A DNA stretch of 64,000 bases. It comes from Aspidiotus rigidus. Taxonomy: Eukaryota > Arthropoda > Insecta > Hemiptera > Diaspididae. Under the pieces are notes generated by a model. The model searched no databases and was not told the origin of the DNA. It saw only the letters and a list, made by a program, of their open reading frames with translations. The stretch spans positions 1,984,001 to 2,048,000 of the forward strand of contig JAVHKY010000055.1 of assembly GCA_035079385.1 (NCBI GenBank). Reading direction: 5' to 3'. The position numbers and the translations under genes are program-made. Every line of letters begins with the position of its first letter. The first letter of the stretch is position 1. Shown in pieces: positions 1,633-46,988 of this stretch.

Positions 1633-2935
1633 CCCCCTCCGGGGGGCGCACTGGCGGGGGCACAATCGTGCCTTGGAACTGGTGCGTCTTCAAGTCTTAC
1701 CACTGCCTTGCCGTGGTGAGGGGGCTTACGACTGGGAGAGGAAGCTACTGCTTTGGACAGCACGCGGTGGAAGCTGAAAAGCGGAAAGGCAAATAGTCGC
1801 TGTCACTCTCCAACACAGTCAACTAAAAGTGGTGTAGGCGAACTCCCCCCTCGAAGGATGTGAACCAGGGTCCTCCCTGCAGAAATGTGGGAAGAAAGGA
1901 GTAACTGACACATCCTTAAGTCTAGCTGCTACCATACTTGTATGGTGAGGGGAATCACCCCTTCGGGAGTGATAAAGCAGCATGGCTCGCGCAGCCTTCA
2001 CCCTGCGTATGTCACCCGCACCCTTTAGCGCACCTGAACACCTTTACACCTTCGCTCACAATCTCTTCGCTTTTCGTACTGCTGACTACTAAAGCAGGCC
2101 AGGCCGGGCTTAGAGGCGGGGTATGCTCAGGGAATTTGGTCTTCCTCTTCCAAGGACGAACAAAAACCCCGAGTAGGAGCAGATAGTAAGTCTGACAGAT
2201 CCTCCAGGATGGTTGCGGGTAGCTCTTTCAGGAGAAATGCAACACGAACAGTTTTTCACTACAAACAACTGCGTGTAACGAAAAATCAGACTGTCGCATC
2301 AACCCTGCACTTGCACGTCCTCCCATCTTGTTGCCAGCGGGACTTCACAAGACGCTCCTTCCTCTCTTTCACACGCTTACCATCTTCGCTTTTCATGGTT
2401 GCCGACTTAAGGCAAATAGGAGAACTCAGACTATTCGGCCTCCCATACATCAAGGGAGTACGAAAAATCTGAGTACGAACAAATGTCAAGTCTGTCAGAT
2501 CTTCCAGAATGGCTGCTGGTGTCTCTTGCAGGAGCAGTTGAGGCATGAAAATTCTTTCCCTCTCTCAAACAAGAAAGTGAAACAATCAGAACTGCACCAA
2601 TTGACTCTTGCACTTGAACGTCCTCCCATGCTGTTATCAGCGGGACTACGACAAATGTTCACTCCCTATAAACTATCCACTCTTGTACTTCATGGCTGCC
2701 CACTTAAGGCGAGCATAGCGGCTATAACGTGGAGTCTGCTTAGGTATCTGGACTGCGGAGTAAAATATATCTCCAAAACCACTACCAATATCTTTGACTC
2801 ATCTTCTCTGTTTTCTATGGGCTTGCTCTCTTGCATGACCTACAAAACCACAACATGAGGTCTCGCACCACATGATCGGGGCCTGCTGTTCCCCCCCAGG
2901 CGGCAGACGTTACCCCATAATTGGTACGGGTAGTA
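1633..2935 (+). repeat. 1.3-kb tandem 5' unit 1.1, with 14-nt extra tail
   Basis: First of eight near-identical units in the window. It starts with the 5'-terminal CCCCCTCCGGGGGGCG also used by the element bodies. It contains CCATAC/GTATGG and UUCG-type hairpins near 1930-1970 and internal degenerate ~300-bp repeats (2191 and 2492 onset). It ends ...CCCCATAAT followed here by TGGTACGGGTAGTA before the next unit. The longest + frame (2328-2858, 176 codons) has no recognisable domain, so I do not call it a gene. The first 140 bases resemble the body 5' UTR, so the unit is probably a diverged 5' UTR or a non-autonomous RNA derived from one. Confidence 0.85.
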
Positions 2936-4224
2936 CCCCCTCCGGGGGGCGCACTGGCGGGGGCACAATCGTGCCTTGGAACTGGTGCGTCTTCAAGTCT
3001 TACCACTGCCTTGCCGTGGCGAGGGGGCTTACGACTGGGAGAGGAAGCTACTGCTTTGGACAGCACGCGGTGGAAGCTGAAAAGCGGAAAGGCAAATAGT
3101 CGCTGTCACTCTCCAACACAGTCAACTAAAAGTGGTGTAGGCGAACTCCCCCCTCGAAGGATGTGAACCAGGGTCCTCCCTGCAGAAATGTGGGAAGAAA
3201 GGAGTAACTGACACATCCTTAAGTCTAGCTGCTACCATACTTGTATGGTGAGGGGAATCACCCCTTCGGGAGTGATAAAGCAGCATGGCTCGCGCAGCCT
3301 TCACCCTGCGTATGTCACCCGCACCCTTTAGCGCACCTGAACACCTTTACACCTTCGCTCACAATCTCTTCGCTTTTCGTACTGCTGACTACTAAAGCAG
3401 GCCAGGCCGGGCTTAGAGGCGGGGTATGCTCAGGGAATTTGGTCTTCCTCTTCCAAGGACGAACAAAAACCCCGAGTAGGAGCAGATAGTAAGTCTGACA
3501 GATCCTCCAGGATGGTTGCGGGTAGCTCTTTCAGGAGAAATGCAACACGAACAGTTTTTCACTACAAACAACTGCGTGTAACGAAAAATCAGACTGTCGC
3601 ATCAACCCTGCACTTGCACGTCCTCCCATCTTGTTGCCAGCGGGACTTCACAAGACGCTCCTTCCTCTCTTTCACACGCTTACCATCTTCGCTTTTCATG
3701 GTTGCCGACTTAAGGCAAATAGGAGAACTCAGACTATTCGGCCTCCCATACATCAAGGGAGTACGAAAAATCTGAGTACGAACAAATGTCAAGTCTGTCA
3801 GATCTTCCAGAATGGCTGCTGGTGTCTCTTGCAGGAGCAGTTGAGGCATGAAAATTCTTTCCCTCTCTCAAACAAGAAAGTGAAACAATCAGAACTGCAC
3901 CAATTGACTCTTGCACTTGAACGTCCTCCCATGCTGTTATCAGCGGGACTACGACAAATGTTCACTCCCTATAAACTATCCACTCTTGTACTTCATGGCT
4001 GCCCACTTAAGGCGAGCATAGCGGCTATAACGTGGAGTCTGCTTAGGTATCTGGACTGCGGAGTAAAATATATCTCCAAAACCACTACCAATATCTTTGA
4101 CTCATCTTCTCTGTTTTCTATGGGCTTGCTCTCTTGCATGACCTACAAAACCACAACATGAGGTCTCGCACCACATGATCGGGGCCTGCTGTTCCCCCCC
4201 AGGCGGCAGACGTTACCCCATAAT
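2936..4224 (+). repeat. 1289-bp tandem 5' unit 1.2
   Basis: Head-to-tail copy of the unit at 1633, joined to the next unit as CATAAT|CCCCCTCC without extra bases. Differs from unit 1.1 visibly by GGC instead of GGT in the predicted P3 strand of the 5' fold. Confidence 0.88.
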
Positions 4225-5513
4225 CCCCCTCCGGGGGGCGCACTGGCGGGGGCACAATCGTGCCTTGGAACTGGTGCGTCTTCAAGTCTTACCACTGCCT
4301 TGCCGTGGCGAGGGGGCTTACGACTGGGAGAGGAAGCTACTGCTTTGGACAGCACGCGGTGGAAGCTGAAAAGCGGAAAGGCAAATAGTCGCTGTCACTC
4401 TCCAACACAGTCAACTAAAAGTGGTGTAGGCGAACTCCCCCCTCGAAGGATGTGAACCAGGGTCCTCCCTGCAGAAATGTGGGAAGAAAGGAGTAACTGA
4501 CACATCCTTAAGTCTAGCTGCTACCATACTTGTATGGTGAGGGGAATCACCCCTTCGGGAGTGATAAAGCAGCATGGCTCGCGCAGCCTTCACCCTGCGT
4601 ATGTCACCCGCACCCTTTAGCGCACCTGAACACCTTTACACCTTCGCTCACAATCTCTTCGCTTTTCGTACTGCTGACTACTAAAGCAGGCCAGGCCGGG
4701 CTTAGAGGCGGGGTATGCTCAGGGAATTTGGTCTTCCTCTTCCAAGGACGAACAAAAACCCCGAGTAGGAGCAGATAGTAAGTCTGACAGATCCTCCAGG
4801 ATGGTTGCGGGTAGCTCTTTCAGGAGAAATGCAACACGAACAGTTTTTCACTACAAACAACTGCGTGTAACGAAAAATCAGACTGTCGCATCAACCCTGC
4901 ACTTGCACGTCCTCCCATCTTGTTGCCAGCGGGACTTCACAAGACGCTCCTTCCTCTCTTTCACACGCTTACCATCTTCGCTTTTCATGGTTGCCGACTT
5001 AAGGCAAATAGGAGAACTCAGACTATTCGGCCTCCCATACATCAAGGGAGTACGAAAAATCTGAGTACGAACAAATGTCAAGTCTGTCAGATCTTCCAGA
5101 ATGGCTGCTGGTGTCTCTTGCAGGAGCAGTTGAGGCATGAAAATTCTTTCCCTCTCTCAAACAAGAAAGTGAAACAATCAGAACTGCACCAATTGACTCT
5201 TGCACTTGAACGTCCTCCCATGCTGTTATCAGCGGGACTACGACAAATGTTCACTCCCTATAAACTATCCACTCTTGTACTTCATGGCTGCCCACTTAAG
5301 GCGAGCATAGCGGCTATAACGTGGAGTCTGCTTAGGTATCTGGACTGCGGAGTAAAATATATCTCCAAAACCACTACCAATATCTTTGACTCATCTTCTC
5401 TGTTTTCTATGGGCTTGCTCTCTTGCATGACCTACAAAACCACAACATGAGGTCTCGCACCACATGATCGGGGCCTGCTGTTCCCCCCCAGGCGGCAGAC
5501 GTTACCCCATAAT
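4225..5513 (+). repeat. 1289-bp tandem 5' unit 1.3
   Basis: Third copy; its ...CCCCATAAT end joins directly to the CCCCCTCC start of the element body at 5514. All three units of this array share TATGTC near the TTCACCCTGCG motif, whereas units of elements 3 and 5 have TACGTC, so arrays are partly homogenised internally. Confidence 0.88.
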
Positions 5514-5623
5514 CCCCCTCCGGGGGGCGTATCAGGGGGCCCTGATGCGTCACCAAGTGTTTCCACAACCTTGCCGCGGTGAGGGGGCTCAAGATCACAA
5601 GGATCGACTAATAGTGGAAATGC
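5514..5623 (+). ncRNA. candidate HDV-like self-cleaving ribozyme at the 5' end of element 1
   Basis: Strand order seen: P1 5' CCCCCUC (5514-5520) pairs with GAGGGGG (5581-5587). P2 GUGUUUCCAC (5557-5566) pairs with GUGGAAAUGC (5614-5623). P3 ACC (5568-5570) pairs with GGU (5578-5580), enclosing a 7-nt loop UUGCCGC. P4 is GAUC-ACAAG-GAUC (5593-5605). J4/2 is GACUAAUA (5606-5613), with a CUAA like the catalytic-C strand of HDV antigenomic RNA (candidate C 5608). The interval between P1 and P2 contains an extra hairpin around AUCAGG/CCUGAU. HDV-like ribozymes at 5' ends of R2 and some other non-LTR elements are established. The weak point is that I see no clean P1.1 pairing. Confidence 0.5.
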
Positions 5624-6344
5624 TCGCATGGTTTTTCACCCCATGTATGACTGTCACAATCCCAAATCATCAATCCTTCCTTCACACATCCGCAGGGAAG
5701 CAATCACACTTACCCTGTCCTAAATTCCCCATTTCCCCACTCCTCTGTCGTGAGCCGCGGGACAACTCACCATCCTGCGGATGTCTTGTGAGGGCCAAGT
5801 CTGGGAAAGAAATCTCGCGCTTTCCTGTAGCCCAAGCGGGAAACAAGGCTCTCGATCACCAGGGAATGATGGACTGGGGTTACGTACTGCCTGCAGCCTT
5901 CACGTCCACCAAGGGTTAAGTACTGCTGCTCACCTAGTCCTCACTTGGCGGAGTATGGATGAAGTGGGCAGCCTTCACTTCCAGAAGTGGGTTACGTACT
6001 GCCTGTGGCCTTCACGTCCTGGACCAACATCTCCCACTCACTCTTCACCAAAGTCGCCGGGAGAGTCACCCCTCGGTGCAGTCTTCTGGGTGTCTCTACT
6101 GGGATGCCCCTTGCTCCTGTAACTCTAGGGCTCAGAGAGTAGAGACTGTGCTTTAATGTACACCCGCTTCACCCCACTCGTCACGTCAATCCCACGGTAC
6201 CTGGCCAGGGGATGCATGGCTGAGACGTATGTCAGTCTACAGGGAACCTGCAGATACCTCCCGACCTCTGCAGTATATAGGGCCACCCAGGTACGACGCA
6301 CTGCCTGGGGGGAGACTAATTCGTTCGTTCTCGTGGGAACACAT
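5514..6344 (+). promoter_or_regulatory. 5' UTR of element 1 body
   Basis: 831 nt from CCCCCTCC to the ORF1 ATG. It holds the candidate HDV-like ribozyme (5514-5623) and a degenerate minisatellite built on GGGTTACGTACTGC and CCTTCACGTCC (about 5877-6030). The last ~200 nt match element 3. The first ~330 nt are closer to element 2 (for example ATCAGGGGGCCCTGAT and TGGTTTTTCACC) than to element 3, the closest relative by coding sequence. Many short upstream ATGs are present. R1-clade promoters are usually internal and near the first transcribed base; I cannot point to a specific promoter element. Confidence 0.75.
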
Positions 6345-8282
6345 ATGGACTTTTTACTACCCCAAAATTCATCGACCTCTCACACTGGATCCCAGATCAC
6401 AGACCTGAGACAGCAGGACCAAGCGGCTGCTGCTCAGACGAACCCCCCGCAAGAGACCGAGCCGTTTTTGCCGCCACAAAAAGCAGCTCATCATACCGAC
6501 ATCAGCTCTGACGAAGAATACATCCCACCAGCGCAGAAGAAGCGCACATTCCGTTTCCATCCAAGGCCACAGCACAAAAAGGCCAAAGAACACTTTAAGC
6601 GACTAACAGCCCTTGGTGTGCATAACTTTGCCGAGACTGGTATCACATATTGGGAACCACAACATATAGGTGAAGAAGATGCAGCGTTCAAGTGGCGCAG
6701 ACAACAAGAGTGTGAAGCCATGACTCGTTACATTGAAGGAAAAGAAAAAGAAAGAAACCTATTGAAAGAGAAACCAACTTGTTACACCTCTGCCACACCA
6801 GTACCCACTGGCATAAAGAAACTCACTGTCAACCTCCCCAGCTGTATTCTTCCTTCAACAGCAAATAGGAGCCGAAGTATGGAATCTAAGATGGCCAACG
6901 AGACCGAACCTGGCAAACGCAAAAGATCACCAACCGTAAAATCTACGGACAATTCCACCAATATCACAGTTGCACAACTGCAAAAGGAATTGAGCCACGA
7001 ACGAAAAGCCAGAAAGGAGCTGGCAGACAAAGTTTCCACTCTATCCCTACAAATATCAACGCTACATGATGCGATACGTAAACTAACAGAAGAAATTGCT
7101 GCTAAACCTCAAATAGCACAACCTGTCCAAGGCACCCAAGGCACTGCACTTACTCCTGAGGTTGAAAACCTAGTGCATACTCTTCTAAAACCAGTGCTAC
7201 AGTCACTGACTACCTCGGCCACCAACGCTGGGAAAAAAGCCGGACCCACAAAAACTGGCAAAACCTATGCCAGTGCCGCCGGTGCCTCATCCTCCCACAA
7301 GTCCACAGGCTGTCAAATCAAAGGCAACGGCCCCGCTGCTACCCATGTCCAAAAAACACTAGAAGCGCATAAGGAAGCAACGAATGCTATAGCTAGTAAC
7401 AGCGCTGCTAGCAACAGCAACACACCCCCCGACCCAGAGGAAGAATTTACAACGGTCATCCACAAAAGAAGGAGAACAGGAATCAACACCCAACCCACAC
7501 TACAAAAGAAACGACTTCCAAAAACCAGGAAGCAGGATCCAAAAACTGTACTACTCCTCCCTACACAGGAACATCCAGACATCCTCACCAAGCTGCAAAC
7601 AATGCCTGAAGCCAACCCCGAGAAACTGGGTGTAAAAAGGCATGTACCTTTTCCATCAGGCGCTGTACTAATCACGTGTACTACTGAAGAACAAGTAACC
7701 AAACTGCGATCAATAACCACAAAAATTGGTATCAAGGAAAAAGAGGCACACCAGAATGCCCCAACGGTACGTATCCATGGCATTCACCCCACTATCTCGA
7801 AAGAAACAATTGCACACCGAATACAGAAGAAATTCAACGAAGAGCCAATGAACATCGAACTCTTTGAATGCAAAAACCCCAAATATCCAGGGAACCTCTT
7901 TGCAGTACTTACCACATCTTTAAGCTTACGCGAGAAAATGTCCAAACACTCGAACATCCGACTCGGATGGATAATGTGTCGCATAGACACCGAGGTAATA
8001 GTCCGACGTTGTCAAAAGTGCAACCTGCTTGGCCACTCAGCTGCCAAGTGCACTGAAATGGAGACATCCGAACCTACAGCACCGCAAACACAAGTAAGCT
8101 GCGCAGACTGCACAAACTTTAACAACACACTAAAGAAGACAACTTCCACCTACGTCAAACGCAAACCGCGCCCTACTGATCATAAAACGGCTGACAAGAG
8201 ATGCCCCACGCTACTGGCCTTTAAGAAAAAAGCACTGCCAACACGCCCATCAGAGGGGGCCAATACATCTGCCACACAATGA
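6345..8282 (+). CDS. ORF1 of element 1: Gag-like nucleic-acid-binding protein
   Basis: 645 residues. I start it at ATG 6345 because the start lies at the same place in elements 2 and 4, and because element 3 carries an in-frame TAA in the upstream extension that is open here from 6156. Seen: an N-terminal low-complexity Gln/Ser/Thr/Pro region; a charged heptad-like stretch at residues ~209-252 (likely coiled coil); a basic, Ala-rich middle; a CCHC zinc knuckle C-x2-C-x4-H-x4-C at C556, C559, H564, C569; and a second CADC...H...C motif from residue 586. In TRAS/SART elements ORF1 packages element RNA and helps bring it to telomeres. The stop TGA overlaps the ORF2 ATG. Nearly identical to ORF1 of element 3 (Thr/Ile difference visible). 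Confidence 0.9.
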   Translation: MDFLLPQNSSTSHTGSQITDLRQQDQAAAAQTNPPQETEPFLPPQKAAHHTDISSDEEYIPPAQKKRTFRFHPRPQHKKAKEHFKRLTALGVHNFAETGITYWEPQHIGEEDAAFKWRRQQECEAMTRYIEGKEKERNLLKEKPTCYTSATPVPTGIKKLTVNLPSCILPSTANRSRSMESKMANETEPGKRKRSPTVKSTDNSTNITVAQLQKELSHERKARKELADKVSTLSLQISTLHDAIRKLTEEIAAKPQIAQPVQGTQGTALTPEVENLVHTLLKPVLQSLTTSATNAGKKAGPTKTGKTYASAAGASSSHKSTGCQIKGNGPAATHVQKTLEAHKEATNAIASNSAASNSNTPPDPEEEFTTVIHKRRRTGINTQPTLQKKRLPKTRKQDPKTVLLLPTQEHPDILTKLQTMPEANPEKLGVKRHVPFPSGAVLITCTTEEQVTKLRSITTKIGIKEKEAHQNAPTVRIHGIHPTISKETIAHRIQKKFNEEPMNIELFECKNPKYPGNLFAVLTTSLSLREKMSKHSNIRLGWIMCRIDTEVIVRRCQKCNLLGHSAAKCTEMETSEPTAPQTQVSCADCTNFNNTLKKTTSTYVKRKPRPTDHKTADKRCPTLLAFKKKALPTRPSEGANTSATQ

Positions 8283-11200
8283 TGCTAAAGCTACTATACC
8301 TGAACTGCAACCACGCCCATGGAGCTACACTCAATGCCACCGTCCTTGCTGCAAAAATGAACATAGATGCACTATGCATCACTGAACCGTACTATCCCGT
8401 TGGCACTTACACTCTAAAGTACCCAGGATGGAACTCACTGTGCGGCCCTCACGCAGCAATCCTAATACGTAAAGATATAAAACACACCCCAGGAACAACA
8501 CATCAAGATTATCACGAAGATATCATTACCACCAAAATAGGAGAAACAATCATACTCTGCACCTACGCCTCACCAAACGAAGAAATCGGAGACATCATCA
8601 CTCCACTTTACGCCTATATAAGAAAACTGAAAGACACCCCCTGTATCATCCTAGGAGACTTCAACTGTCAGACCAGTCTCATCCCTGGATACAGGACAAC
8701 CAATAGAGGAGAACAGCTTGAAGACTTACTTCACATTGCAGGACTATCCCTAGCCAACAACACACAACCTACTTGGAGAAGAGGAAAACATACAAGTATA
8801 AATGACTACATCTGTTACAAAAACACGGAAGTCAACAATTACAGAGTACTTAAAGAAGAATCCCTGTCTGACCACTTCCTGATAACTGCAAACGCCTCTG
8901 CCACTTATGAAAAAACCAAGAAATGCTTCAAAACTGATGCTAGTAAGCTATCCATTGCCATTAGAAACCTAGTGATTGCCACTCCAACACTCAATGACAC
9001 TCGAGATATTGATGGCTTTATTGAAAACCTTACAATTATGCTACAAGGATGCATTGAGAAATGCTCCACAGAAATTCCAATCAGAAAGAAGAAACCCTAC
9101 TTCTGGAAACCTGAACTGGAAACGCTGAAAAATGCACTGCGTACCCTGAACCGACGCATAAAAAGGTGTACAAATGAAGAAAGATTACATATCTACCTCT
9201 ACACAAAGAAGATGATACAAAAAGCTTATCGAAAGTTGATGCTTGAAAGTAAGTACTCTGCCTTTAGAGAACTTTGCACACAAAGCAAACCCTGGGGTAC
9301 CCCATATAAGATGCTGAAATACGTTCCCAAAACTCCCCTTCCTCTGCTTACTAGCAACACAGGAAGGAAATGTAAAACAAAGGAGGAAAGTATACAACTG
9401 CTCCTAACTGAAAAATTTCCAAAATCCAACGAAACCCTCGAGAGAAATAAATACACAGGTTCAGAGGGACCTAGCCCCAATATATCCGATGCTGAAATTA
9501 GAGAAATAGTTAGACACCTTCAAAACCACAAAGCTCCTGGTCCTGACCTACTAAACACACTTGCCATCAAAGCCCTCATAAGACATCACTCTGATGTTCT
9601 ACCGGTACTCTTCACAGAATGTCTAGCCCAAGGCTACTTCCCTAAGTCCTGGAGAAAAGGAAGAATCCTGTTCTTACATAAAACAGGTAAAGATCCAACA
9701 AAGACTGACAGCTACAGACCCCTAGCTTTGCTCTCCATTCTTGGAAAAATATTTGAACGCATCATAAACTGGCGAATTGTAGAACACTATAACACACACC
9801 AACCACTACACTCTAGACAATTCGGCTTCAGAAAGGACACTGGAACTGAAGAAGCGATACATAAAGTGGCACAAATATATAAGTGTCAATCAACTAACAA
9901 CCGTCTAACCGCGGCCATCTCGCTAGATATAAAAGGTGCATTCGACCACCTAGAGTGGAACGGAATACTTAGAGAACTTGCAGCAGCCAACACTCCACAA
10001 TACATCATCCGCACCATATCATCATATCTGGACAATAGAACAGCCCATTCTGAAGGCCAATCAGTCCGACTCGAAAGAGGATGTCCCCAAGGATCAGTGC
10101 TCGCCCCAACGCTCTGGAACATCCTCTACGATGTCTTGATAAAGAATATCTACAACGATACTACCAAGAACATTTGTGTATACGCCGACGATACAATACT
10201 TATTATAGCAGCAAACACTGCAAATGAGCTAGAAATCAAAATTAAGCAATGCATTCAGACAATAGCAGAAGAACTACAAAAAATCGGACTCCTCTTAAAT
10301 GTAGGTAAGACCGAAATACTGCTACGAAACCATCTACCATTATACGCACGAAACGGCAATGAAATGCTCACTATAAACGTAGATAACTACATACTGACCA
10401 CAAAGAAAACCATAAAATACCTAGGTATAATGCTGGACCACAAGCTAAAGTATAAAGAACACCTGAAATATATTGAAGAAAAATCCCTAAAACGCATACC
10501 CATCCTACAGAATGTGGCAAGAAACTTATACGGTTACAGCTATAAGGCTCGCAAAACTATGTTCCAGGGTCTCATCTACAGTGTAATAAAATACTGTTCA
10601 ACAGTCTGGTATGATAGACTACAACTGAAAACTTATAAGAACATAATCAGCAAAATCCAAAGACGCTGTGATATCATCATAAGCAGGGCGTATCATGACA
10701 TCAACAAAGAAACAGCAAACATCTTAGCCAATGATCCCCCACTACACCTAAAAATCTATGAAAGGTCCATCAAATGGCTACTAAAGAAAAATCTCCCAAT
10801 ACCCCACTGGGGACATCTACCGCAAGTGGAAATCGGCCCCAATGGAGAGTACACCCGAGACGACAACACACCCATATCTGGAAGCGAACTCTCCAAAGTC
10901 CTTCATAATGCCACAATAGAACAGTGGAATAACGAATGGCAAAACATCACACCTAAGAAATGGGCCCATCATCTCTACCCCACTGTATATGATCGAAGGA
11001 GAATAAAAGAGCCACCAAACTTCTGGACATCTATGGCAATCAGTGACCACGGATGTTTTAAACACTACCTAAAGAGGATAAATAAAATCCCAAATGACCA
11101 ATGCCCTTGCGGATTTGATGTTGAAAATGCAAAACATGTGTTCACTAACTGCATCCGCTTTGTCAGCAATAGACCACTCGACTGGAACAAGCTGGAAAGC

Positions 11201-11356
11201 TATCATCTACCATATCTAAATCAGGTCATGCTGAAACTCTGGAAAATAGAAAACCCTCTGTTCACCATAAAGAACACACCAACGGAAGACGATCAATTTG
11301 CGCCGAAACCAAGATACCAAACCTCTCCATCATCAACACCTACATTAATTAATTAA
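8279..11356 (+). CDS. ORF2 of element 1: APE-like endonuclease / reverse transcriptase
   Basis: 1025 residues. The ATG at 8279 overlaps the ORF1 stop as ATGA, so reinitiation after ORF1 termination is likely, as shown for SART1. Endonuclease domain at residues 1-~205: YLNCN (N9/N11), TEPYYP (E36), GDFN (126-129), IND (D176), SDH (197-199), a complete set of catalytic positions. A linker rich in Lys/Arg follows. RT domain: LDIKGAFDH (D550, motif A) and YADD (635-638, metal-binding aspartates). C-terminal zinc motif CPC...H...C at 942-958, typical of the R1 clade. Predicted job: nick the CCTAA strand and copy the RNA from the nicked end. No frameshift or stop seen. Confidence 0.93.
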   Translation: MMLKLLYLNCNHAHGATLNATVLAAKMNIDALCITEPYYPVGTYTLKYPGWNSLCGPHAAILIRKDIKHTPGTTHQDYHEDIITTKIGETIILCTYASPNEEIGDIITPLYAYIRKLKDTPCIILGDFNCQTSLIPGYRTTNRGEQLEDLLHIAGLSLANNTQPTWRRGKHTSINDYICYKNTEVNNYRVLKEESLSDHFLITANASATYEKTKKCFKTDASKLSIAIRNLVIATPTLNDTRDIDGFIENLTIMLQGCIEKCSTEIPIRKKKPYFWKPELETLKNALRTLNRRIKRCTNEERLHIYLYTKKMIQKAYRKLMLESKYSAFRELCTQSKPWGTPYKMLKYVPKTPLPLLTSNTGRKCKTKEESIQLLLTEKFPKSNETLERNKYTGSEGPSPNISDAEIREIVRHLQNHKAPGPDLLNTLAIKALIRHHSDVLPVLFTECLAQGYFPKSWRKGRILFLHKTGKDPTKTDSYRPLALLSILGKIFERIINWRIVEHYNTHQPLHSRQFGFRKDTGTEEAIHKVAQIYKCQSTNNRLTAAISLDIKGAFDHLEWNGILRELAAANTPQYIIRTISSYLDNRTAHSEGQSVRLERGCPQGSVLAPTLWNILYDVLIKNIYNDTTKNICVYADDTILIIAANTANELEIKIKQCIQTIAEELQKIGLLLNVGKTEILLRNHLPLYARNGNEMLTINVDNYILTTKKTIKYLGIMLDHKLKYKEHLKYIEEKSLKRIPILQNVARNLYGYSYKARKTMFQGLIYSVIKYCSTVWYDRLQLKTYKNIISKIQRRCDIIISRAYHDINKETANILANDPPLHLKIYERSIKWLLKKNLPIPHWGHLPQVEIGPNGEYTRDDNTPISGSELSKVLHNATIEQWNNEWQNITPKKWAHHLYPTVYDRRRIKEPPNFWTSMAISDHGCFKHYLKRINKIPNDQCPCGFDVENAKHVFTNCIRFVSNRPLDWNKLESYHLPYLNQVMLKLWKIENPLFTIKNTPTEDDQFAPKPRYQTSPSSTPTLIN

Positions 11357-11633: not shown

Positions 11634-11667
<34 letters not shown>

Positions 11668-11669
<2 letters not shown>

Positions 11670-11680
11670 TTAGGTTAGGT
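11668..11680 (+). repeat. telomeric TTAGG spacer, 13 nt
   Basis: GGTTAGGTTAGGT between the poly(A) of element 1 and a truncated family-C copy. Confidence 0.9.
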
Positions 11681-12269: not shown

Positions 12270-12379
12270 CCCCCTCCGGGGGGCGTATCAGGGGGCCCTG
12301 ATGCGTCACCAAGTGTTTCCACAACCTTGCCGCGGTGAGGGGGCTCAAGATCACAAGGATCGACTAATAGTGGAAATGC
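12270..12379 (+). ncRNA. candidate HDV-like ribozyme of element 2
   Basis: Same strand order and spacing as at 5514: CCCCCUC with GAGGGGG, UUUCCAC with GUGGAAA (12370-12376), P3 ACC/GGU around UUGCCGC, GAUC/GAUC P4, and GACUAAUA as J4/2. Its presence in a family with diverged ORFs does not by itself show selection, because this region has probably been exchanged between families. Confidence 0.48.
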
Positions 12380-13103
12380 TCGCATGGTTTTTCACCCCAT
12401 GTATGACTGTCACAATCCCAAATCATCAATCCTTCCTTCACACATCCGCAGGGAAGCAATCACACTTACCCTGTCCTAAATTCCCCATTCCCCACTCCTC
12501 TGTCGTGAGCCGCGGGACAACTCACCATCCCGCGGATGTCTTGTGAGGGCCAAGTCTGGGAAAGAAATCTCGCGCTTTCCTGTAGCCCAAGCGGGAAACA
12601 AGGCTCTCGATCACCAGGGAATGATGGACTGGGGTTACGTACTGCCTGCAGCCTTCACGTCCACCAAGGGTTAAGTACTGCTGCTCACCTAGTCCTCTCT
12701 TGGCGGAGTCTGGATGAAGTGGGCAGCCTTCACTTCCAGAAGTGGGTTACGTACTGCCTGTGGGCCTTCACGTCCTGGACCAACATCTCCCACTCACTCT
12801 TCACCAAAGTCGCCGGGAGAGTCACCCCTCGGCGCAGTCTTCTGGGTGTCTCTACTGGGATGCCCCTTGCTCCTGTAACTCTAGGGCTCAGAGAGTAGAG
12901 ACTGTGCTTCAATGTACACCCGCTTCACCCCAAATCGTCACGTCAATCCTAGGGTACCTGGCCAAGGGATGCATGGCTGAGACGTATGTCAGTCTACAGG
13001 GAACCTGCAGATATCTCCCGTCCTCTGCAGTATAATTGGGACATCCGGGTACGACGCACTGCCCGGGGGTAGACTATTTCGTTCTTACTCGTGGGAACCA
13101 CAT
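12270..13103 (+). promoter_or_regulatory. 5' UTR of element 2
   Basis: 834 nt. The first ~330 bases differ from element 1 by about one single-base indel and one substitution by eye. Divergence from family A rises towards the ORF1 start (an extra A near 12935; CCGGGTACG against CCAGGTACG). It includes the same TTACGTACTGC/CCTTCACGTCC minisatellite. Confidence 0.75.
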
Positions 13104-15146
13104 ATGTATTTTGAATCCTCCTCCTCCTCGATTACTCACACTGGATCACCGATCTCGAACCTGAACGCCCAGGACCAAGCGGCTGACGTTCAGATGTCCA
13201 CCCCGCAAGAAAGGGAGACTACCTTGCCGCCACAAGGCCCGTCTCAACACATCAATGACCTACACAGCATCATCTCCTCATCTGATGATGATCGCAGTAC
13301 CTCCTCAACCACCCTCACGCAATTATCTCACTCGCAGAAGAAAAAGAAGATGACCAACCACCACCCGCCTCCAGCGTACAAAGCGGCCAAAGACCATCTG
13401 AAGCGACTGAGGAACCTCGGAATAAACAACTTCTCTGAAACCGGGATCGACTACTGGGAGATGAAAAGAACAAATGAGACGGCGGTTGAACATAAAGCGC
13501 GCCGACAACACGAATGTACACAAATGGCAGCGTACATTACAACCTTGGAGGAGAAACGTGGACTCTCCAAAAAGAACACAAGCCCCAACCAGGACTCCAC
13601 TCCAAGCTGCATCCTTGGATCTGGAAACAAATCGCTGGCTGTAATGCTGTCCGACATCAACGCCAGTCAACACAAAGCCGCCAGCAGCAAGAGCAGCTCT
13701 ACTACAACTTCAACCTTGAACCGAAAAAGGCCATTTACCGAAACCACACCAGACAGTGAAATCGAATCTCTGAAGAAAGACCTCCATCACGAAAGGAAGG
13801 CTAGGAGAGAACTTGCTGACAAAGTCACGGCCATGACAAAGAAAATGGCCGGACTAGTAAATACCATCCAAGAGCTGACACGTCAGCTGAATGACCGACC
13901 CCCCCTCTCGTCAACTTCAGCTACACAGAAAGAAAACAACGCCTCTGATCTTACCCCTGAGATTAAAAAACTGGTTGAGTCTATACTACAACCAATAATC
14001 AAAACACTAACTGACTCCCAATCCAACAACGCTGCCCTAGACAAGAAGAAAAAGAAGAATCAACCAGCGACAACAGAAGCTGCTAATCCAGCGAAAACAT
14101 ACGCCAATGTAGCTGCTCCCAATGTAGCCTCCACATCCACTGCACAAATTGTGGGCAGCGGACCAGCAACCACACACCTCAGAAAGGTGGCAGCGGCACA
14201 CGCAGCTAAATCCAACGACACCAATGCCTCCAGCAGCACCATTGTACAAACAGCTGTAGAGGAAGAATTCCAGCTCCAACGCTCCGAAAGACGACGCCGA
14301 GCTAAGAAACAACAGCGAAAAGAAAAACCATCCGAAACAACCCCTGCTAAACCAAAAAAGCAGAAGAAACGCCTCCCCTCCTCCCAGAAGCAGGATCCGC
14401 GGAATGTTCTCCTACTCCCCTCACAGGAAATCCCAAATGTTCTGCAAAAACTGCAGAACATGCCAGAAGCGGATCCAGTCAAGTTGGGAGTGAAACGTCA
14501 TGTGCCATTCCCCTCCGGCGCAGTCTTAGTCTCCTGCGCCACTGAGACTCAAGCTAATAGTCTCCGTAATATCACCACCAACATCGGCATAGCTGAGAAG
14601 ATAGTGGCTACAAGAATGCCAGAAGTGCGCATTCATGGCATTCACGCCAACATAACCACCGAGGAGATCGCCCGCCGAATCACTGCAAAGTTTCATGAAA
14701 CTCCCCAATCCATCCAGCTATTCCCCAGCAAATCAACCAAACACCCTGGTTCTAAATTTGCGGTAGTCACTACCTCTCTAAAACTAAGGGAGAACATGGC
14801 CAAACATAACACCATACGTCTGGGATGGACCATGTGTCGTATTGATACAAGCATTGTCGTCAAGCGCTGCCCCACATGCAACCTCCTGGGCCACTCTGCC
14901 CAGAAATGCACCAAAATGGATACCCCAGCCATGGAAGACGAACAAACCACCTCCCAGCCAACTTGCGGAGACTGCAAAAATTTCAATGAGCTGAGAAAGA
15001 AGACCCAAGGCTCTTCCATCATTAAGTCTAAACTGAGACCTACCAACCACGGCACAGGCAGTAAGAACTGCCCTACACTCCTCGCCTTCCAGAGGAAAGC
15101 TCTACCAACCCGCCCATCCCAGGCTACTCCACCGGCAACACAATGA
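13104..15146 (+). CDS. ORF1 of element 2: Gag-like protein
   Basis: 680 residues. ATG at 13104 follows GGGAACCACAT at the position corresponding to the ORF1 start in the other families. Seen: a Ser/Thr-rich N-terminus; a region resembling family-A ORF1 around KAAKDHLKRLRNLGINNFSE; a heptad-like charged segment at residues ~220-264 (coiled coil); a long Lys-rich stretch; and a CCHC knuckle at C589, C592, H597, C602, followed by a second Cys/His cluster starting CGDC. Predicted RNA-binding Gag-like protein. The stop overlaps the ORF2 ATG. Confidence 0.9.
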   Translation: MYFESSSSSITHTGSPISNLNAQDQAADVQMSTPQERETTLPPQGPSQHINDLHSIISSSDDDRSTSSTTLTQLSHSQKKKKMTNHHPPPAYKAAKDHLKRLRNLGINNFSETGIDYWEMKRTNETAVEHKARRQHECTQMAAYITTLEEKRGLSKKNTSPNQDSTPSCILGSGNKSLAVMLSDINASQHKAASSKSSSTTTSTLNRKRPFTETTPDSEIESLKKDLHHERKARRELADKVTAMTKKMAGLVNTIQELTRQLNDRPPLSSTSATQKENNASDLTPEIKKLVESILQPIIKTLTDSQSNNAALDKKKKKNQPATTEAANPAKTYANVAAPNVASTSTAQIVGSGPATTHLRKVAAAHAAKSNDTNASSSTIVQTAVEEEFQLQRSERRRRAKKQQRKEKPSETTPAKPKKQKKRLPSSQKQDPRNVLLLPSQEIPNVLQKLQNMPEADPVKLGVKRHVPFPSGAVLVSCATETQANSLRNITTNIGIAEKIVATRMPEVRIHGIHANITTEEIARRITAKFHETPQSIQLFPSKSTKHPGSKFAVVTTSLKLRENMAKHNTIRLGWTMCRIDTSIVVKRCPTCNLLGHSAQKCTKMDTPAMEDEQTTSQPTCGDCKNFNELRKKTQGSSIIKSKLRPTNHGTGSKNCPTLLAFQRKALPTRPSQATPPATQ

Positions 15147-18595: not shown

Positions 18596-19884
18596 CCCCC
18601 TCCGGGGGGCGCACTGGCGGGGGCACAATCGTGCCTTGGAACTGGTGCGTCTTCAAGTCTTACCACTGCCTTGCCGTGGCGAGGGGGCTTACGACTGGGA
18701 GAGGAAGCTACTGCTTTGGACAGCACGCGGTGGAAGCTGAAAAGCGGAAAGGCAAATAGTCGCTGTCACTCTCCAACACAGTCAACTAAAAGTGGTGTAG
18801 GCGAACTCCCCCCTCGAAGGATGTGAACCAGGGTCCTCCCTGCAGAAATGTGGGAAGAAAGGAGTAACTGACACATCCTTAAGTCTAGCTGCTACCATAC
18901 TTGTATGGTGAGGGGAATCACCCCTTTGGGAGTGATAAAGCAGCATGGCTCGCGCAGCCTTCACCCTGCGTACGTCACCCGCACCCTTTAGCGCACCTGA
19001 ACACCTTTACACCTTCGCTCACAATCTCTTCGCTTTTCGTACTGCTGACTACTAAAGCAGGCCAGGCCGGGCTTAGAGGCGGGGTATGCTCAGGGAATTT
19101 GGTCTTCCTCTTCCAAGGACGAACAAAAACCCCGAGTAGGAGCAGATAGTAAGTCTGACAGATCCTCCAGGATGGTTGCGGGTAGCTCTTTCAGGAGAAA
19201 TGCAACACGAACAGTTTTTCACTACAAACAACTGCGTGTAACGAAAAATCAGACTGTCGCATCAACCCTGCACTTGCACGTCCTCCCATCTTGTTGCCAG
19301 CGGGACTTCACAAGACGCTCCTTCCTCTCTTTCACACGCTTACCATCTTCGCTTTTCATGGTTGCCGACTTAAGGCAAATAGGAGAACTCAGACTATTCG
19401 GCCTCCCATACATCAAGGGAGTACGAAAAATCTGAGTACGAACAAATGTCAAGTCTGTCAGATCTTCCAGAATGGCTGCTGGTGTCTCTTGCAGGAGCAG
19501 TTGAGGCATGAAAATTCTTTCCCTCTCTCAAACAAGAAAGTGAAACAATCAGAACTGCACCAATTGACTCTTGCACTTGAACGTCCTCCCATGCTGTTAT
19601 CAGCGGGACTACGACAAATGTTCACTCCCTATAAACTATCCACTCTTGTACTTCATGGCTGCCCACTTAAGGCGAGCATAGCGGCTATAACGTGGAGTCT
19701 GCTTAGGTATCTGGACTGCGGAGTAAAATATATCTCCAAAACCACTACCAATATCTTTGACTCATCTTCTCTGTTTTCTATGGGCTTGCTCTCTTGCATG
19801 ACCTACAAAACCACAACATGAGGTCTCGCACCACATGATCGGGGCCTGCTGTTCCCCCCCAGGCGGCAGACGTTACCCCATAAT
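18596..19884 (+). repeat. 1289-bp tandem 5' unit 3.1
   Basis: Unit directly after TTAGG. It carries the CCCCTTTGGG variant (TTCGGG in the units of element 1), shared with both units of element 5. Confidence 0.88.
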
Positions 19885-21173
19885 CCCCCTCCGGGGGGCG
19901 CACTGGCGGGGGCACAATCGTGCCTTGGAACTGGTGCGTCTTCAAGTCTTACCACTGCCTTGCCGTGGCGAGGGGGCTTACGACTGGGAGAGGAAGCTAC
20001 TGCTTTGGACAGCACGCGGTGGAAGCTGAAAAGCGGAAAGGCAAATAGTCGCTGTCACTCTCCAACACAGTCAACTAAAAGTGGTGTAGGCGAACTCCCC
20101 CCTCGAAGGATGTGAACCAGGGTCCTCCCTGCAGAAATGTGGGAAGAAAGGAGTAACTGACACATCCTTAAGTCTAGCTGCTACCATACTTGTATGGTGA
20201 GGGGAATCACCCCTTCGGGAGTGATAAAGCAGCATGGCTCGCGCAGCCTTCACCCTGCGTACGTCACCCGCACCCTTTAGCGCACCTGAACACCTTTACA
20301 CCTTCGCTCACAATCTCTTCGCTTTTCGTACTGCTGACTACTAAAGCAGGCCAGGCCGGGCTTAGAGGCGGGGTATGCTCAGGGAATTTGGTCTTCCTCT
20401 TCCAAGGACGAACAAAAACCCCGAGTAGGAGCAGATAGTAAGTCTGACAGATCCTCCAGGATGGTTGCGGGTAGCTCTTTCAGGAGAAATGCAACACGAA
20501 CAGTTTTTCACTACAAACAACTGCGTGTAACGAAAAATCAGACTGTCGCATCAACCCTGCACTTGCACGTCCTCCCATCTTGTTGCCAGCGGGACTTCAC
20601 AAGACGCTCCTTCCTCTCTTTCATACGCTTACCATCTTCGCTTTTCATGGTTGCCGACTTAAGGCAAATAGGAGAACTCAGACTATTCGGCCTCCCATAC
20701 ATCAAGGGAGTACGAAAAATCTGAGTACGAACAAATGTCAAGTCTGTCAGATCTTCCAGAATGGCTGCTGGTGTCTCTTGCAGGAGCAGTTGAGGCATGA
20801 AAATTCTTTCCCTCTCTCAAACAAGAAAGTGAAACAATCAGAACTGCACCAATTGACTCTTGCACTTGAACGTCCTCCCATGCTGTTATCAGCGGGACTA
20901 CGACAAATGTTCACTCCCTATAAACTATCCACTCTTGTACTTCATGGCTGCCCACTTAAGGCGAGCATAGCGGCTATAACGTGGAGTCTGCTTAGGTATC
21001 TGGACTGCGGAGTAAAATATATCTCCAAAACCACTACCAATATCTTTGACTCATCTTCTCTGTTTTCTATGGGCTTGCTCTCTTGCATGACCTACAAAAC
21101 CACAACATGAGGTCTCGCACCACATGATCGGGGCCTGCTGTTCCCCCCCAGGCGGCAGACGTTACCCCATAAT
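19885..21173 (+). repeat. 1289-bp tandem 5' unit 3.2
   Basis: Head-to-tail copy joined CATAAT|CCCCCTCC. It has TTCGGG and a private CATACGC (CACACGC elsewhere) near 20624. Confidence 0.88.
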
Positions 21174-22477
21174 CCCCCTCCGGGGGGCGCACTGGCGGGG
21201 GCACAATCGTGCCTTGGAACTGGTGCGTCTTCAAGTCTTACCACTGCCTTGCCGTGGCGAGGGGGCTTACGACTGGGAGAGGAAGCTACTGCTTTGGACA
21301 GCACGCGGTGGAAGCTGAAAAGCGGAAAGGCAAATAGTCGCTGTCACTCTCCAACACAGTCAACTAAAAGTGGTGTAGGCGAACTCCCCCCTCGAAGGAT
21401 GTGAACCAGGGTCCTCCCTGCAGAAATGTGGGAAGAAAGGAGTAACTGACACATCCTTAAGTCTAGCTGCTACCATACTTGTATGGTGAGGGGAATCACC
21501 CCTTCGGGAGTGATAAAGCAGCATGGCTCGCGCAGCCTTCACCCTGCGTACGTCACCCGCACCCTTTAGCGCACCTGAACACCTTTACACCTTCGCTCAC
21601 AATCTCTTCGCTTTTCGTACTGCTGACTACTAAAGCAGGCCAGGCCGGGCTTAGAGGCGGGGTATGCTCAGGGAATTTGGTCTTCCTCTTCCAAGGACGA
21701 ACAAAAACCCCGAGTAGGAGCAGATAGTAAGTCTGACAGATCCTCCAGGATGGTTGCGGGTAGCTCTTTCAGGAGAAATGCAACACGAACAGTTTTTCAC
21801 TACAAACAACTGCGTGTAACGAAAAATCAGACTGTCGCATCAACCCTGCACTTGCACGTCCTCCCATCTTGTTGCCAGCGGGACTTCACAAGACGCTCCT
21901 TCCTCTCTTTCACACGCTTACCATCTTCGCTTTTCATGGTTGCCGACTTAAGGCAAATAGGAGAACTCAGACTATTCGGCCTCCCATACATCAAGGGAGT
22001 ACGAAAAATCTGAGTACGAACAAATGTCAAGTCTGTCAGATCTTCCAGAATGGCTGCTGGTGTCTCTTGCAGGAGCAGTTGAGGCATGAAAATTCTTTCC
22101 CTCTCTCAAACAAGAAAGTGAAACAATCAGAACTGCACCAATTGACTCTTGCACTTGAACGTCCTCCCATGCTGTTATCAGCGGGACTACGACAAATGTT
22201 CACTCCCTATAAACTATCCACTCTTGTACTTCATGGCTGCCCACTTAAGGCGAGCATAGCGGCTATAACGTGGAGTCTGCTTAGGTATCTGGACTGCGGA
22301 GTAAAATATATCTCCAAAACCACTACCAATATCTTTGACTCATCTTCTCTGTTTTCTATGGGCTTGCTCTCTTGCATGACCTACAAAACCACAACATGAG
22401 GTCTCGCACCACATGATCGGGGCCTGCTGTTCCCCCCCAGGCGGCAGACGTTACCCCATAATCTGGTACGGGTAGTA
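21174..22477 (+). repeat. 1.3-kb tandem 5' unit 3.3, with extra tail
   Basis: Third copy. Its end is CATAAT plus CTGGTACGGGTAGTA before the body at 22478, almost the same extra tail seen at 2922-2935 and 38121-38135. Confidence 0.88.
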
Positions 22478-22587
22478 CCCCCTCCGGGGGGCGCATCAGG
22501 GGGTCCTGATGCGTCACCAAGTGTTTCCACAACCTTGCCGCGGTGAGGGGGCTTAAGATCACAAGGATCGACTAATAGTGGAAATGC
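22478..22587 (+). ncRNA. candidate HDV-like ribozyme of element 3
   Basis: P1 CCCCCUC/GAGGGGG, P2 UUUCCAC/GUGGAAA (3' strand 22578-22584), P3 ACC/GGU, P4 GAUC/GAUC, J4/2 GACUAAUA. The hairpin between P1 and P2 is a perfect CGCATCAGG/CCTGATGCG here, where element 1 has a G-U wobble, a change that keeps pairing. Confidence 0.5.
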
Positions 22588-28629: not shown

Positions 28630-28739
28630 CCCCCTCCGGGGGGCGTATCAGGGGGTCCTGATGCGTCACCAAGTGTTTCCACAACCTTGCCGCGGTGAGG
28701 GGGCTCAAGATCACAAAGATCGACTAATAGTGGAAATGC
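28630..28739 (+). ncRNA. candidate HDV-like ribozyme of element 4
   Basis: Same P1, P2, P3 and J4/2 as the others. P4 loop is ACAAA instead of ACAAG, with the GAUC/GAUC stem kept. P2 3' strand at 28730-28736. Confidence 0.48.
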
Positions 28740-35542: not shown

Positions 35543-36831
35543 CCCCCTCCGGGGGGCGCACTGGCGGGGGCACAATCGTGCCTTGGAACTGGTGCGTCTT
35601 CAAGTCTTACCACTGCCTTGCCGTGGCGAGGGGGCTTACGACTGGGAGAGGAAGCTACTGCTTTGGACAGCACGCGGTGGAAGCTGAAAAGCGGAAAGGC
35701 AAATAGTCGCTGTCACTCTCCAACACAGTCAACTAAAAGTGGTGTAGGCGAACTCCCCCCTCGAAGGATGTGAACCAGGGTCCTCCCTGCAGAAATGTGG
35801 GAAGAAAGGAGTAACTGACACATCCTTAAGTCTAGCTGCTACCATACTTGTATGGTGAGGGGAATCACCCCTTTGGGAGTGATAAAGCAGCATGGCTCGC
35901 GCAGCCTTCACCCTGCGTACGTCACCCGCACCCTTTAGCGCACCTGAACACCTTTACACCTTCGCTCACAATCTCTTCGCTTTTCGTACTGCTGACTACT
36001 AAAGCAGGCCAGGCCGGGCTTAGAGGCGGGGTATGCTCAGGGAATTTGGTCTTCCTCTTCCAAGGACGAACAAAAACCCCGAGTAGGAGCAGATAGTAAG
36101 TCTGACAGATCCTCCAGGATGGTTGCGGGTAGCTCTTTCAGGAGAAATGCAACACGAACAGTTTTTCACTACAAACAACTGCGTGTAACGAAAAATCAGA
36201 CTGTCGCATCAACCCTGCACTTGCACGTCCTCCCATCTTGTTGCCAGCGGGACTTCACAAGACGCTCCTTCCTCTCTTTCACACGCTTACCATCTTCGCT
36301 TTTCATGGTTGCCGACTTAAGGCAAATAGGAGAACTCAGACTATTCGGCCTCCCATACATCAAGGGAGTACGAAAAATCTGAGTACGAACAAATGTCAAG
36401 TCTGTCAGATCTTCCAGAATGGCTGCTGGTGTCTCTTGCAGGAGCAGTTGAGGCATGAAAATTCTTTCCCTCTCTCAAACAAGAAAGTGAAACAATCAGA
36501 ACTGCACCAATTGACTCTTGCACTTGAACGTCCTCCCATGCTGTTATCAGCGGGACTACGACAAATGTTCACTCCCTATAAACTATCCACTCTTGTACTT
36601 CATGGCTGCCCACTTAAGGCGAGCATAGCGGCTATAACGTGGAGTCTGCTTAGGTATCTGGACTGCGGAGTAAAATATATCTCCAAAACCACTACCAATA
36701 TCTTTGACTCATCTTCTCTGTTTTCTATGGGCTTGCTCTCTTGCATGACCTACAAAACCACAACATGAGGTCTCGCACCACATGATCGGGGCCTGCTGTT
36801 CCCCCCCAGGCGGCAGACGTTACCCCATAAT
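35543..36831 (+). repeat. 1289-bp tandem 5' unit 5.1
   Basis: Starts right after TTAGG. Carries TTTGGG and TACGTC variants, like unit 3.1. Joined CATAAT|CCCCCTCC to the next unit. Confidence 0.88.
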
Positions 36832-38135
36832 CCCCCTCCGGGGGGCGCACTGGCGGGGGCACAATTGTGCCTTGGAACTGGTGCGTCTTCAAGTCTTACC
36901 ACTGCCTTGCCGTGGCGAGGGGGCTTACGACTGGGAGAGGAAGCTACTGCTTTGGACAGCACGCGGTGGAAGCTGAAAAGCGGAAAGGCAAATAGTCGCT
37001 GTCACTCTCCAACACAGTCAACTAAAAGTGGTGTAGGCGAACTCCCCCCTCGAAGGATGTGAACCAGGGTCCTCCCTGCAGAAATGTGGGAAGAAAGGAG
37101 TAACTGACACATCCTTAAGTCTAGCTGCTACCATACTTGTATGGTGAGGGGAATCACCCCTTTGGGAGTGATAAAGCAGCATGGCTCGCGCAGCCTTCAC
37201 CCTGCGTACGTCACCCGCACCCTTTAGCGCACCTGAACACCTTTACACCTTCGCTCACAATCTCTTCGCTTTTCGTACTGCTGACTACTAAAGCAGGCCA
37301 GGCCGGGCTTAGAGGCGGGGTATGCTCAGGGAATTTGGTCTTCCTCTTCCAAGGACGAACAAAAACCCCGAGTAGGAGCAGATAGTAAGTCTGACAGATC
37401 CTCCAGGATGGTTGCGGGTAGCTCTTTCAGGAGAAATGCAACACGAACAGTTTTTCACTACAAACAACTGCGTGTAACGAAAAATCAGACTGTCGCATCA
37501 ACCCTGCACTTGCACGTCCTCCCATCTTGTTGCCAGCGGGACTTCACAAGACGCTCCTTCCTCTCTTTCACACGCTTACCATCTTCGCTTTTCATGGTTG
37601 CCGACTTAAGGCAAATAGGAGAACTCAGACTATTCGGCCTCCCATACATCAAGGGAGTACGAAAAATCTGAGTACGAACAAATGTCAAGTCTGTCAGATC
37701 TTCCAGAATGGCTGCTGGTGTCTCTTGCAGGAGCAGTTGAGGCATGAAAATTCTTTCCCTCTCTCAAACAAGAAAGTGAAACAATCAGAACTGCACCAAT
37801 TGACTCTTGCACTTGAACGTCCTCCCATGCTGTTATCAGCGGGACTACGACAAATGTTCACTCCCTATAAACTATCCACTCTTGTACTTCATGGCTGCCC
37901 ACTTAAGGCGAGCATAGCGGCTATAACGTGGAGTCTGCTTAGGTATCTGGACTGCGGAGTAAAATATATCTCCAAAACCACTACCAATATCTTTGACTCA
38001 TCTTCTCTGTTTTCTATGGGCTTGCTCTCTTGCATGACCTACAAAACCACAACATGAGGTCTCGCACCACATGATCGGGGCCTGCTGTTCCCCCCCAGGC
38101 GGCAGACGTTACCCCATAATTGGTACGGGTAGTAC
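36832..38135 (+). repeat. 1.3-kb tandem 5' unit 5.2, with 15-nt tail
   Basis: Private ACAATTGTGCC (ACAATCGTGCC elsewhere) changes the loop of a GGCAC/GTGCC hairpin. Ends CATAAT plus TGGTACGGGTAGTAC, then the truncated ORF2. Confidence 0.88.

Positions 38136-46934: not shown

Positions 46935-46988
<54 letters not shown>

Follow-up and report, generated by a model that had tools for sequence, protein, structure and literature searches.

Our analysis covered a window of 64,000 nucleotides of the Aspidiotus rigidus genome (C55:1984001-2048000 of a 441-Mb assembly), which contains a telomeric array of non-LTR elements, and all elements lying between telomeric repeats are on the + strand (Table 1). 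Four element bodies, the two copies of body A (5514 and 22478) together with bodies B and C, represent three families and are accompanied by eight 1.29-kb units. Pfam matches in ORF2 of body A comprised an endonuclease and a reverse transcriptase and included no RNase H. A protein search with the 211-aa ORF of the unit found no relatives at E 0.001, and the unit is therefore treated as non-coding. The coding parts of the three body families are about 63–73% identical where blastn aligns them and the first ~850–970 nt are 85–93% identical, so that 5' UTRs seem to have been exchanged or homogenised between element families. Another telomeric family in SART orientation occupies 40706-46935; its ORF2 is 28% identical to that of body A, and longer relatives carry a long internal A-run upstream of ORF2. 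The element array is adjoined by an AT-rich tandem satellite (47585-64000, spacing mostly 1519 bp), and satellite of this type is also found beside telomeric elements on another contig (C92, locus L155).

Table 1. Positions of the predicted ribozyme, its copies and the neighbouring features in the window.
Feature	Position	Strand	Remark
Array of three 1.29-kb units, each headed by the fold, running into body A at 5514	1633..5513	+	
Unit-type fold with long P4, after telomeric repeats	1633..1835	+	likewise at 2936, 4225, 18596, 19885, 21174, 35543, 36832
P1 5' strand CCCCCUC	5514..5520	+	predicted cleavage just 5' of 5514
Local hairpin CCCCCUCCGGGGGG competing with P1	5514..5527	+	4-5 bp, -10.5 vs -13.6 kcal/mol for P1 duplex
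J1/2 hairpin (P1.2-like)	5526..5551	+	11 bp in minimum-energy fold, covaries between families
P2 5' strand UUUCCAC	5560..5566	+	
P3 5' strand ACC	5568..5570	+	
L3 UUGCCGC	5571..5577	+	U5571 and G5576 fit HDV loop-3 U.G signature; G5573 is P1.1 candidate
P3 3' strand GGU	5578..5580	+	
P1 3' strand GAGGGGG	5581..5587	+	
C5588, candidate P1.1 partner of G5573	5588..5588	+	invariant column
P4 GAUC-ACAAG-GAUC	5593..5605	+	
J4/2 CUAA	5608..5611	+	C5608 is candidate catalytic C (C75 equivalent)
P2 3' strand GUGGAAA	5614..5620	+	
ORF1 of body A	6129..8282	+	
ORF2 of body A	8225..11356	+	APE endonuclease and reverse transcriptase (Pfam EN, RT)
Poly(A) joined to GGTTAGG	11634..11679	+	SART-type 3' junction
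Body B 5' end, same fold	12270..12376	+	directly after telomeric repeats
Three units joined to body via 14-bp linker	18596..22477	+	
Second copy of body A, same fold at 5' end	22478..22584	+	
Body C 5' end, same fold	28630..28736	+	directly after telomeric repeats
Two units joined via linker to 5'-truncated body	35543..38134	+	
Similar 5' parts of bodies	5514-6480, 12270-13236, 22478-23310, 28630-29460		85-93% identity

The orientation of these elements was determined from their 3' junctions. Seven of the eight A-runs in the window lead straight into GGTTAGG (at 1618, 11667, 12255, 18582, 28616, 35528 and 40674), and the eighth, at 46986, does so with GA interposed. According to the available part of PMC7265360, SART elements occupy the TTAGG strand, where they insert at TT/AGG and their poly(A) is joined to AGG, and TRAS elements lie on the CCTAA strand, inserted between C and T. 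The original prediction had called the elements TRAS-like; this assignment was rejected because the sense strand carries TTAGG at the eight junctions examined and poly(A) is joined to AGG, which is the SART arrangement. The endonuclease profile of body A ORF2 matched R1Bm and TRAS1 about equally (E 3.3e-11 and 6.9e-11) in a list with no entry named SART, and the name SART-like as used here rests on orientation.

All 12 element heads of the window (four bodies and eight units) begin with CCCCCTCC and contain, from nucleotide 1, the strand order P1-P2-P3-P3'-P1'-P4-J4/2-P2' of a nested double pseudoknot. The helices originally proposed for the segment were recovered where they had been placed, namely P1 between 5514-5520 and 5581-5587, P3 with its loop, P4, the CUAA junction and a crossing P2, the last of which had been thought extendable to 10 bp and, with wobbles counted, reached 11 bp in the minimum-energy fold. 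The same fold was found at 12270, 22478 and 28630 as proposed and additionally at all eight unit heads. P3 had been described as ACC/GGU in bodies and GCC/GGC in units, which holds for the bodies and for seven of the eight units; the unit at 1633 has GCC/GGU. Three further features were added by our analysis: a covarying hairpin in J1/2, a candidate single G-C pair for P1.1 and a hairpin between a C-run and a G-run that competes with P1. Units and bodies have in common only their first 16 nt and nucleotides 47-94/29-76 (48 nt, 81%), with no detectable similarity beyond, so that conservation is confined to the ribozyme core.

The frequency of such folds was estimated with a descriptor composed of a 7-bp P1, a 3-bp P3, L3 as UNNNCGY, CNAA and a 6-bp P2, which matched exactly the 12 heads on the + strand of the window and nothing on the - strand. 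Shuffled sequence (40 shuffles of 46 kb, both strands) gave 18 chance loci in 3.68 Mb, the expectation by shuffling was 0.155 loci per 64-kb + strand with a maximum of 2 (200 shuffles), and the motif with P1 at nucleotide 1 arose in none of 5000 local shuffles of the body segment and in none of 5000 of the unit segment. Swapping the L3 U in the descriptor left 0 loci on the + strand and 1 on the - strand, and swapping the L3 G left 0 and 2. Swapping the first J4/2 letter gave 8 loci with A, 8 with T and 0 with G; the A and T matches are the same eight units slid by 1–2 bases within CUAAAAGUGG, and this control therefore does not discriminate in the units. A viral-contig control of 35 loci (33 picked for the core pattern and two distant RT loci from a protein-guided scan; 300 kb, both strands) gave four descriptor matches, two of them with identical sequence.

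Relatives were then collected from the whole genome, in which the exact core pattern occurred 78 times and a reversed control pattern 0 times; 60 loci were taken, covering 64 of the 66 core matches outside the window. A second sample consisted of 20 ORF2 relatives (L134-L153) chosen among the matches listed, whose upstream stretches were inspected, L145-L147 being cut at the place predicted from L142. Among these matches the fold was found upstream of ORF2 in 13 of the 20 loci (L134-L139, L142, L143, L145-L148 and L152) and persisted down to about 30% ORF2 protein identity. No motif was found upstream of ORF2 in L140, L141, L144, L150, L151 and L153, and the sole motif match in L149 is the head of what appears to be a neighbouring element. 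Within the 40706-46935 family, followed upstream in L149-L151, L153 and L155, no HDV-like motif was found near its uncertain 5' end.

ORF2 identity to the window element, again among the matches listed, was 58% for L148, 55–60% in two pieces for L143, 48% for C92 (L134 and L135), 31–33% for C20, C15, C82 and C34, and 30% for C52 (L138); L152 belongs to an ORF2 that is 32% identical to that of the 40706 element. The HDV strand order was seen in seven family types of the genome, with P1 formed by CCCCCUU/AAGGGGG, CCCCCAC/GUGGGGG, CCUCCAC/GUGGGGG and CUCCCAC/GUGGGGG and, further, by CUUCUAC/GUGGAGG, CCUUUUC/GAAGAGG and CCCUCUC/GAGAGGG. Heads appear to be exchanged between families, as L148 carries a family-3 head, the head type of the 48% family, and window bodies B and C (ORF2 57–58%) carry a family-1 head. 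L143, a dispersed relative, has a core that looks intact (P1 CCCUCUC/GAGAGGG, CCAA) but an unrelated J1/2.

Covariation was calculated for 24 pairs in 18 distinct rows (423 cells) with helix columns placed by hand. Paired cells amounted to 99.5% in comparison to 80.3% in shuffles, 17 of the 24 pairs had changed on both sides (10.1 in shuffles) and the covariation score was 0.614 (0.238 in shuffles). None of 500 shuffles reached the paired percentage, the double-change or the covariation value, and 35 of the 500 reached the value for further pair types. Sliding the partners by 1–3 columns reduced pairing to 34.5–50.9%. Rows within a family are closely related, and independent changes are thus fewer than the cell counts. 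The covariation of P1 and P2 among relatives, a check named beforehand, was borne out: P1 (7 bp) and the P2 core (5 bp) were each 100% paired, with 5/7 and 4/5 pairs doubly changed. P3 was also 100% paired with one pair doubly changed, and the J1/2 hairpin, a type that L143 does not have, was 98.7% paired with 7/9 pairs doubly changed. Three P2 positions, paired in only 11, 14 and 10 of 19 rows, were excluded from the test, and the base pair adjoining P3 was unpaired in 9/19 rows.

These values should be read together with the way in which the sequences were found. The window heads, L134, L135, L136, L138 and L142 were found by the descriptor, which requires P1, P2 and P3 pairing, and the core copies by a pattern fixing P1' and nearly all of P3'. 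For L137, L139, L143, L145-L147, L148 and L152, the search used only L3 and the CC/GG of P3, and the P1 partners were located afterwards; J4/2 in L134, L138, L139 and L148 was picked after inspection within ~400 nt.

Fortuitous pairing in DNA rich in G- and C-runs has to be weighed here, as such runs ease pairing and both the shuffled sequence and the viral-contig control yielded descriptor matches. It is nevertheless hardly credible, given that the motif lies at nucleotide 1 in 12/12 copies, that unit and body are two otherwise unrelated sequences, and that pairing is kept where P1 is not a C-run (the last three pairs listed above). The covariation test in practice refutes it.

The residues that characterise HDV-like ribozymes were also compared. 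L3 reads UUGNCGY, and its U was present in 18/18 and its G in 17/18 aligned sequences (the exception is A in L137, UUGUCAC), a conservation that the selection of sequences partly demanded. The C after P1' and the J4/2 C-N-A-A (CUAA or CCAA) were found in 18/18, with extra nucleotides in J4/2 before P2. The L3 U and G correspond to the trans U.G pair described as part of the HDV family signature, where U20, G25 and C75 are the numbered residues (PMC3386971), and the helix lengths may be set beside the R2 consensus of a 6-7 bp P1 and a P2 of at least 5 bp (PMC3774820). P1.1 is described as one or two base pairs (PMC4908430), and the original prediction had conceded that no clear P1.1 was present. 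This weakness is eased in part by a single G-C, between the third L3 base and the first base after P1', that is invariant in the 18 aligned sequences; being invariant, the pair cannot covary and has no covariation support. The missing P1.1 may be this one pair, which would correspond to G22-C38. P1 starts with C in the present sequences and with G in R2 and HDV, and for trypanosomatid ribozymes a different orientation of the P1 G-C pairs is described.

The position of the fold at element nucleotide 1 agreed with what had been proposed, as all five telomere-flanked heads of the window start CCCCCTC. Seven of the eight unit 3' ends likewise lead to a CCCCCTC head (five directly, two via a 14-bp linker), and one leads via the linker to a truncated body. 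Among 76 core matches (64 from the genome and 12 from the window), 68 had a recognisable start and eight had truncated or altered heads without one. Mutually unlike 30-nt flanks precede 29 starts outside the window, of which 25 are CCCCCTC and four have 1–2 extra C, an outcome favoured by the recognition of starts through their C-run. CCCCCTC was present in 49 of the 64 genomic copies and was preceded by T in 32, A in 11, C in 4 and G in 2. Among the ORF2 relatives, L134 and L152 start exactly at P1 nucleotide 1 after AGGTT, L148 has one extra C and L137 five; in the 31% family, with unrelated flanks, L146 and L147 are exact at P1, L142 is ambiguous by one or two C and L145 has a partial second head. 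A dispersed copy at C2 (L048, L154; ~2.07 kb) is flanked by GGTTGAGTCCAGGA as a target duplication of 14 bp that begins with GGTT, and runs from exactly CCCCCTCC to a poly(A) end. Stop-free stretches in it do not exceed 86 codons on the + and 145 on the - strand, and the copy, which has no long open frame, is thus non-autonomous.

Sequence, helix order, signature residues, covariation, exact 5' ends and SART-type junctions are all directly observed, and an HDV-like identity is strongly supported by the structure, the signature residues, the covariation between distant families and the exact 5' ends. The segment is therefore best read as the 5' end of a SART-like, telomere-targeted non-LTR retrotransposon encoding a predicted HDV-like self-cleaving ribozyme, to which we assign a probability of roughly 0.83. 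Exact 5' ends would likewise be produced if the element start were simply the transcription start, fixed by an internal promoter at +1, with the fold incidental or a remnant, and Bombyx SART1 and TRAS1 are cited with downstream promoter elements in their core promoters (PMC4748587). This explanation is unlikely, as it leaves the paired changes of P1, P2 and P3 between distant families unexplained together with the conservation of L3 and C-N-A-A. It is important to note that promoter and ribozyme need not exclude each other, since L1Tc is described with both functions in one 77-nt sequence.

The predicted ribozyme was further compared with Rfam and with competing folds. Rfam gave no match in the window at gathering score, and its HDV-type models gave none on the segment at E up to 10, none on 46.5 kb up to 3, none on eight relatives up to 5 and none on 201 nt of L143 up to 10; the covariance-model search proposed originally thus returned no HDV-type match in window, segment or relatives, a match that would have been supporting evidence but is not what defines the class. 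The main competitor of P1 is a hairpin of the first 4–5 nt with the G-run that follows P1. Its energy in comparison to that of P1 was -10.5 vs -13.6 kcal/mol in families 1 and 2 (-8.2 in L045), -9.6 vs -11.6 kcal/mol in family 3 and -4.3 to -10.2 vs -10.4 to -13.4 in family 4; it is weak in L139 (-2.4 kcal/mol) and none is predicted in L138 and L143. The pseudoknot-free minimum of the body (-47.6) contains this hairpin and lacks P1, and the P1-forced fold reaches -44.0. A second CCCCC..TC run lies just after P2' in 35/51 unit-type copies, and this second P1-like strand could compete for P1'. This repeat of the P1 strand reads CCCCCCTC at 4438, just 3' of the unit ribozyme, and lies at the equivalent place in the other units.

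Strong local hairpins, one of them sequestering the P1 5' strand, would suit a structured and conserved 5' RNA that has lost cleavage or that serves mainly in translation initiation or RNP assembly, and HDV-like ribozymes are reported to matter for downstream ORF translation as well (PMC11620745). Such an RNA would not account for the conservation of the candidate catalytic C (18/18), the L3 U (18/18) and the L3 G (17/18), which is as expected under selected catalysis, or for the coincidence of element 5' ends with the predicted cut, and we regard this interpretation as quite improbable. The recurrence in four families of the hairpin that competes with P1 may reflect regulation or a post-cleavage form.

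For a self-cleaving ribozyme at the element head, we infer upstream transcription, folding, cleavage and use of the cut RNA for insertion. Transcription would start upstream, in the telomeric repeat, the preceding element or the preceding unit, and the nascent RNA, at about nucleotide 110 in a body or 200 in a unit, would adopt the P1-P2-P3-P1.1-P4 fold, place C5608 in the active site and cleave itself 5' of nucleotide 1. Once released, the RNA beginning with CCCCCUC would serve as template for target-primed reverse transcription at TT/AGG, and full-length copies would thus begin at P1 nucleotide 1.

The junctions between units and bodies were mapped for their bearing on how arrays are assembled. 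Position +1 of four units (4225, 19885, 21174 and 36832), of the family-1 body at 5514 and of one family-3 body (L135:1729) directly follows the unit 3' end CCCCATAAT, and the first bases common to the family-1/unit and family-3 partners are only CCCCCT. The 14-bp linker TGGTACGGGTAGTA is present at three of the eight unit ends (2922-2935, 22464-22477 and 38121-38134), where it precedes the heads at 2936 and 22478 and leads to the truncated body at 38134, and is absent from the other five. Outside the window, two cores per locus were found in L054, L079 and L086, spaced 958, 1045 and 1058 nt, and upstream sequences recurred in L054/L059/L068/L070 (four loci), L061/L077/L086 (three) and L083/L100 (two), which suggests other module ends. 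These joints can tentatively be interpreted as the product of interchangeable RNA modules defined by their ribozymes, whose role would then go beyond trimming the 5' end: cleavage of long telomeric transcripts would free unit-length RNAs with fixed ends, and the reverse transcriptase would jump from the cleaved 5' end of one to the cleaved 3' end of another, leaving arrays joined exactly at cleavage sites; template jumping to a second RNA is described for the R2 reverse transcriptase (PMC3414825). Unequal recombination is the simpler explanation for the window arrays, which resemble duplicates of one another (99.2% over 10 kb), but the family-3 joint is harder to explain in this way because only CCCCCT is common to the partners.

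If the ribozyme reading is correct, the telomere-embedded retrotransposons of Aspidiotus rigidus need no promoter at +1, and full-length templates could be cut out of read-through telomeric transcripts. At least seven variants of the predicted ribozyme occur in this genome, some intact-looking and others degenerate, both at telomeres and dispersed. This natural panel allows a direct comparison of cleavage site, element 5' end and target duplication, and the arrays may record RNA-level joining at cleavage sites.

The original prediction named no earlier ribozyme of this type in TRAS. HDV-like ribozymes are, in the available part of PMC11620745, already listed for R2, R4, R6, RTE, telomere-specific SART, Baggins and L1Tc, with their occurrence credited to Ruminski et al. 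2011 and Weinberg et al. 2019. Our search of the literature on HDV-like ribozymes with SART, TRAS, telomere or R1, whose coverage excluded most subscription journals, found no report of the present elements or of tandem ribozyme-headed units. The SART ribozymes (PMC11620745) share with those described here a telomere-targeted SART-type non-LTR element and an HDV-like ribozyme in the 5' UTR. R2 ribozymes, as far as described by Eickbush et al. 2013 (PMC3774820), resemble them in strand order, a 6-7 bp P1, a P2 of at least 5 bp, a variable P4, conserved L3 positions, the catalytic C and a cut that falls at the element 5' end or near it; R2 belongs to another clade and resides in rDNA, and many of its ribozymes cut upstream in 28S, whereas the cut is predicted here at the junction.

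The J1/2 hairpin finds its parallel in the mosquito ribozyme drz-Agam-2-1, where a J1/2 hairpin (P1.2) and an extended P2 are reported to speed cleavage (PMC4908430), and by analogy the present hairpin would fit that role; unlike in drz-Agam-2-1, a G-run that can pair with the 5' strand of P1 lies in front of it. The L1Tc/Pr77 ribozyme (PMC4035085, PMC4748587) likewise forms the extreme 5' end of a non-LTR element and is common to non-autonomous relatives, and a switch in structure once downstream sequence has been transcribed is proposed for it; it differs in clade and sequence and in the promoter function shown for it. A further parallel is offered by the R2 and R2/R1 SIDEs of Drosophila, as portrayed in PMC3414825, which are non-autonomous with a 5' HDV-like ribozyme and 14-bp duplications. 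These duplications are made by the R1 machinery, and template jumps are invoked for extra 5' sequences, which in the present arrays, unlike in SIDEs, are ribozyme-headed units in up to three repeats.
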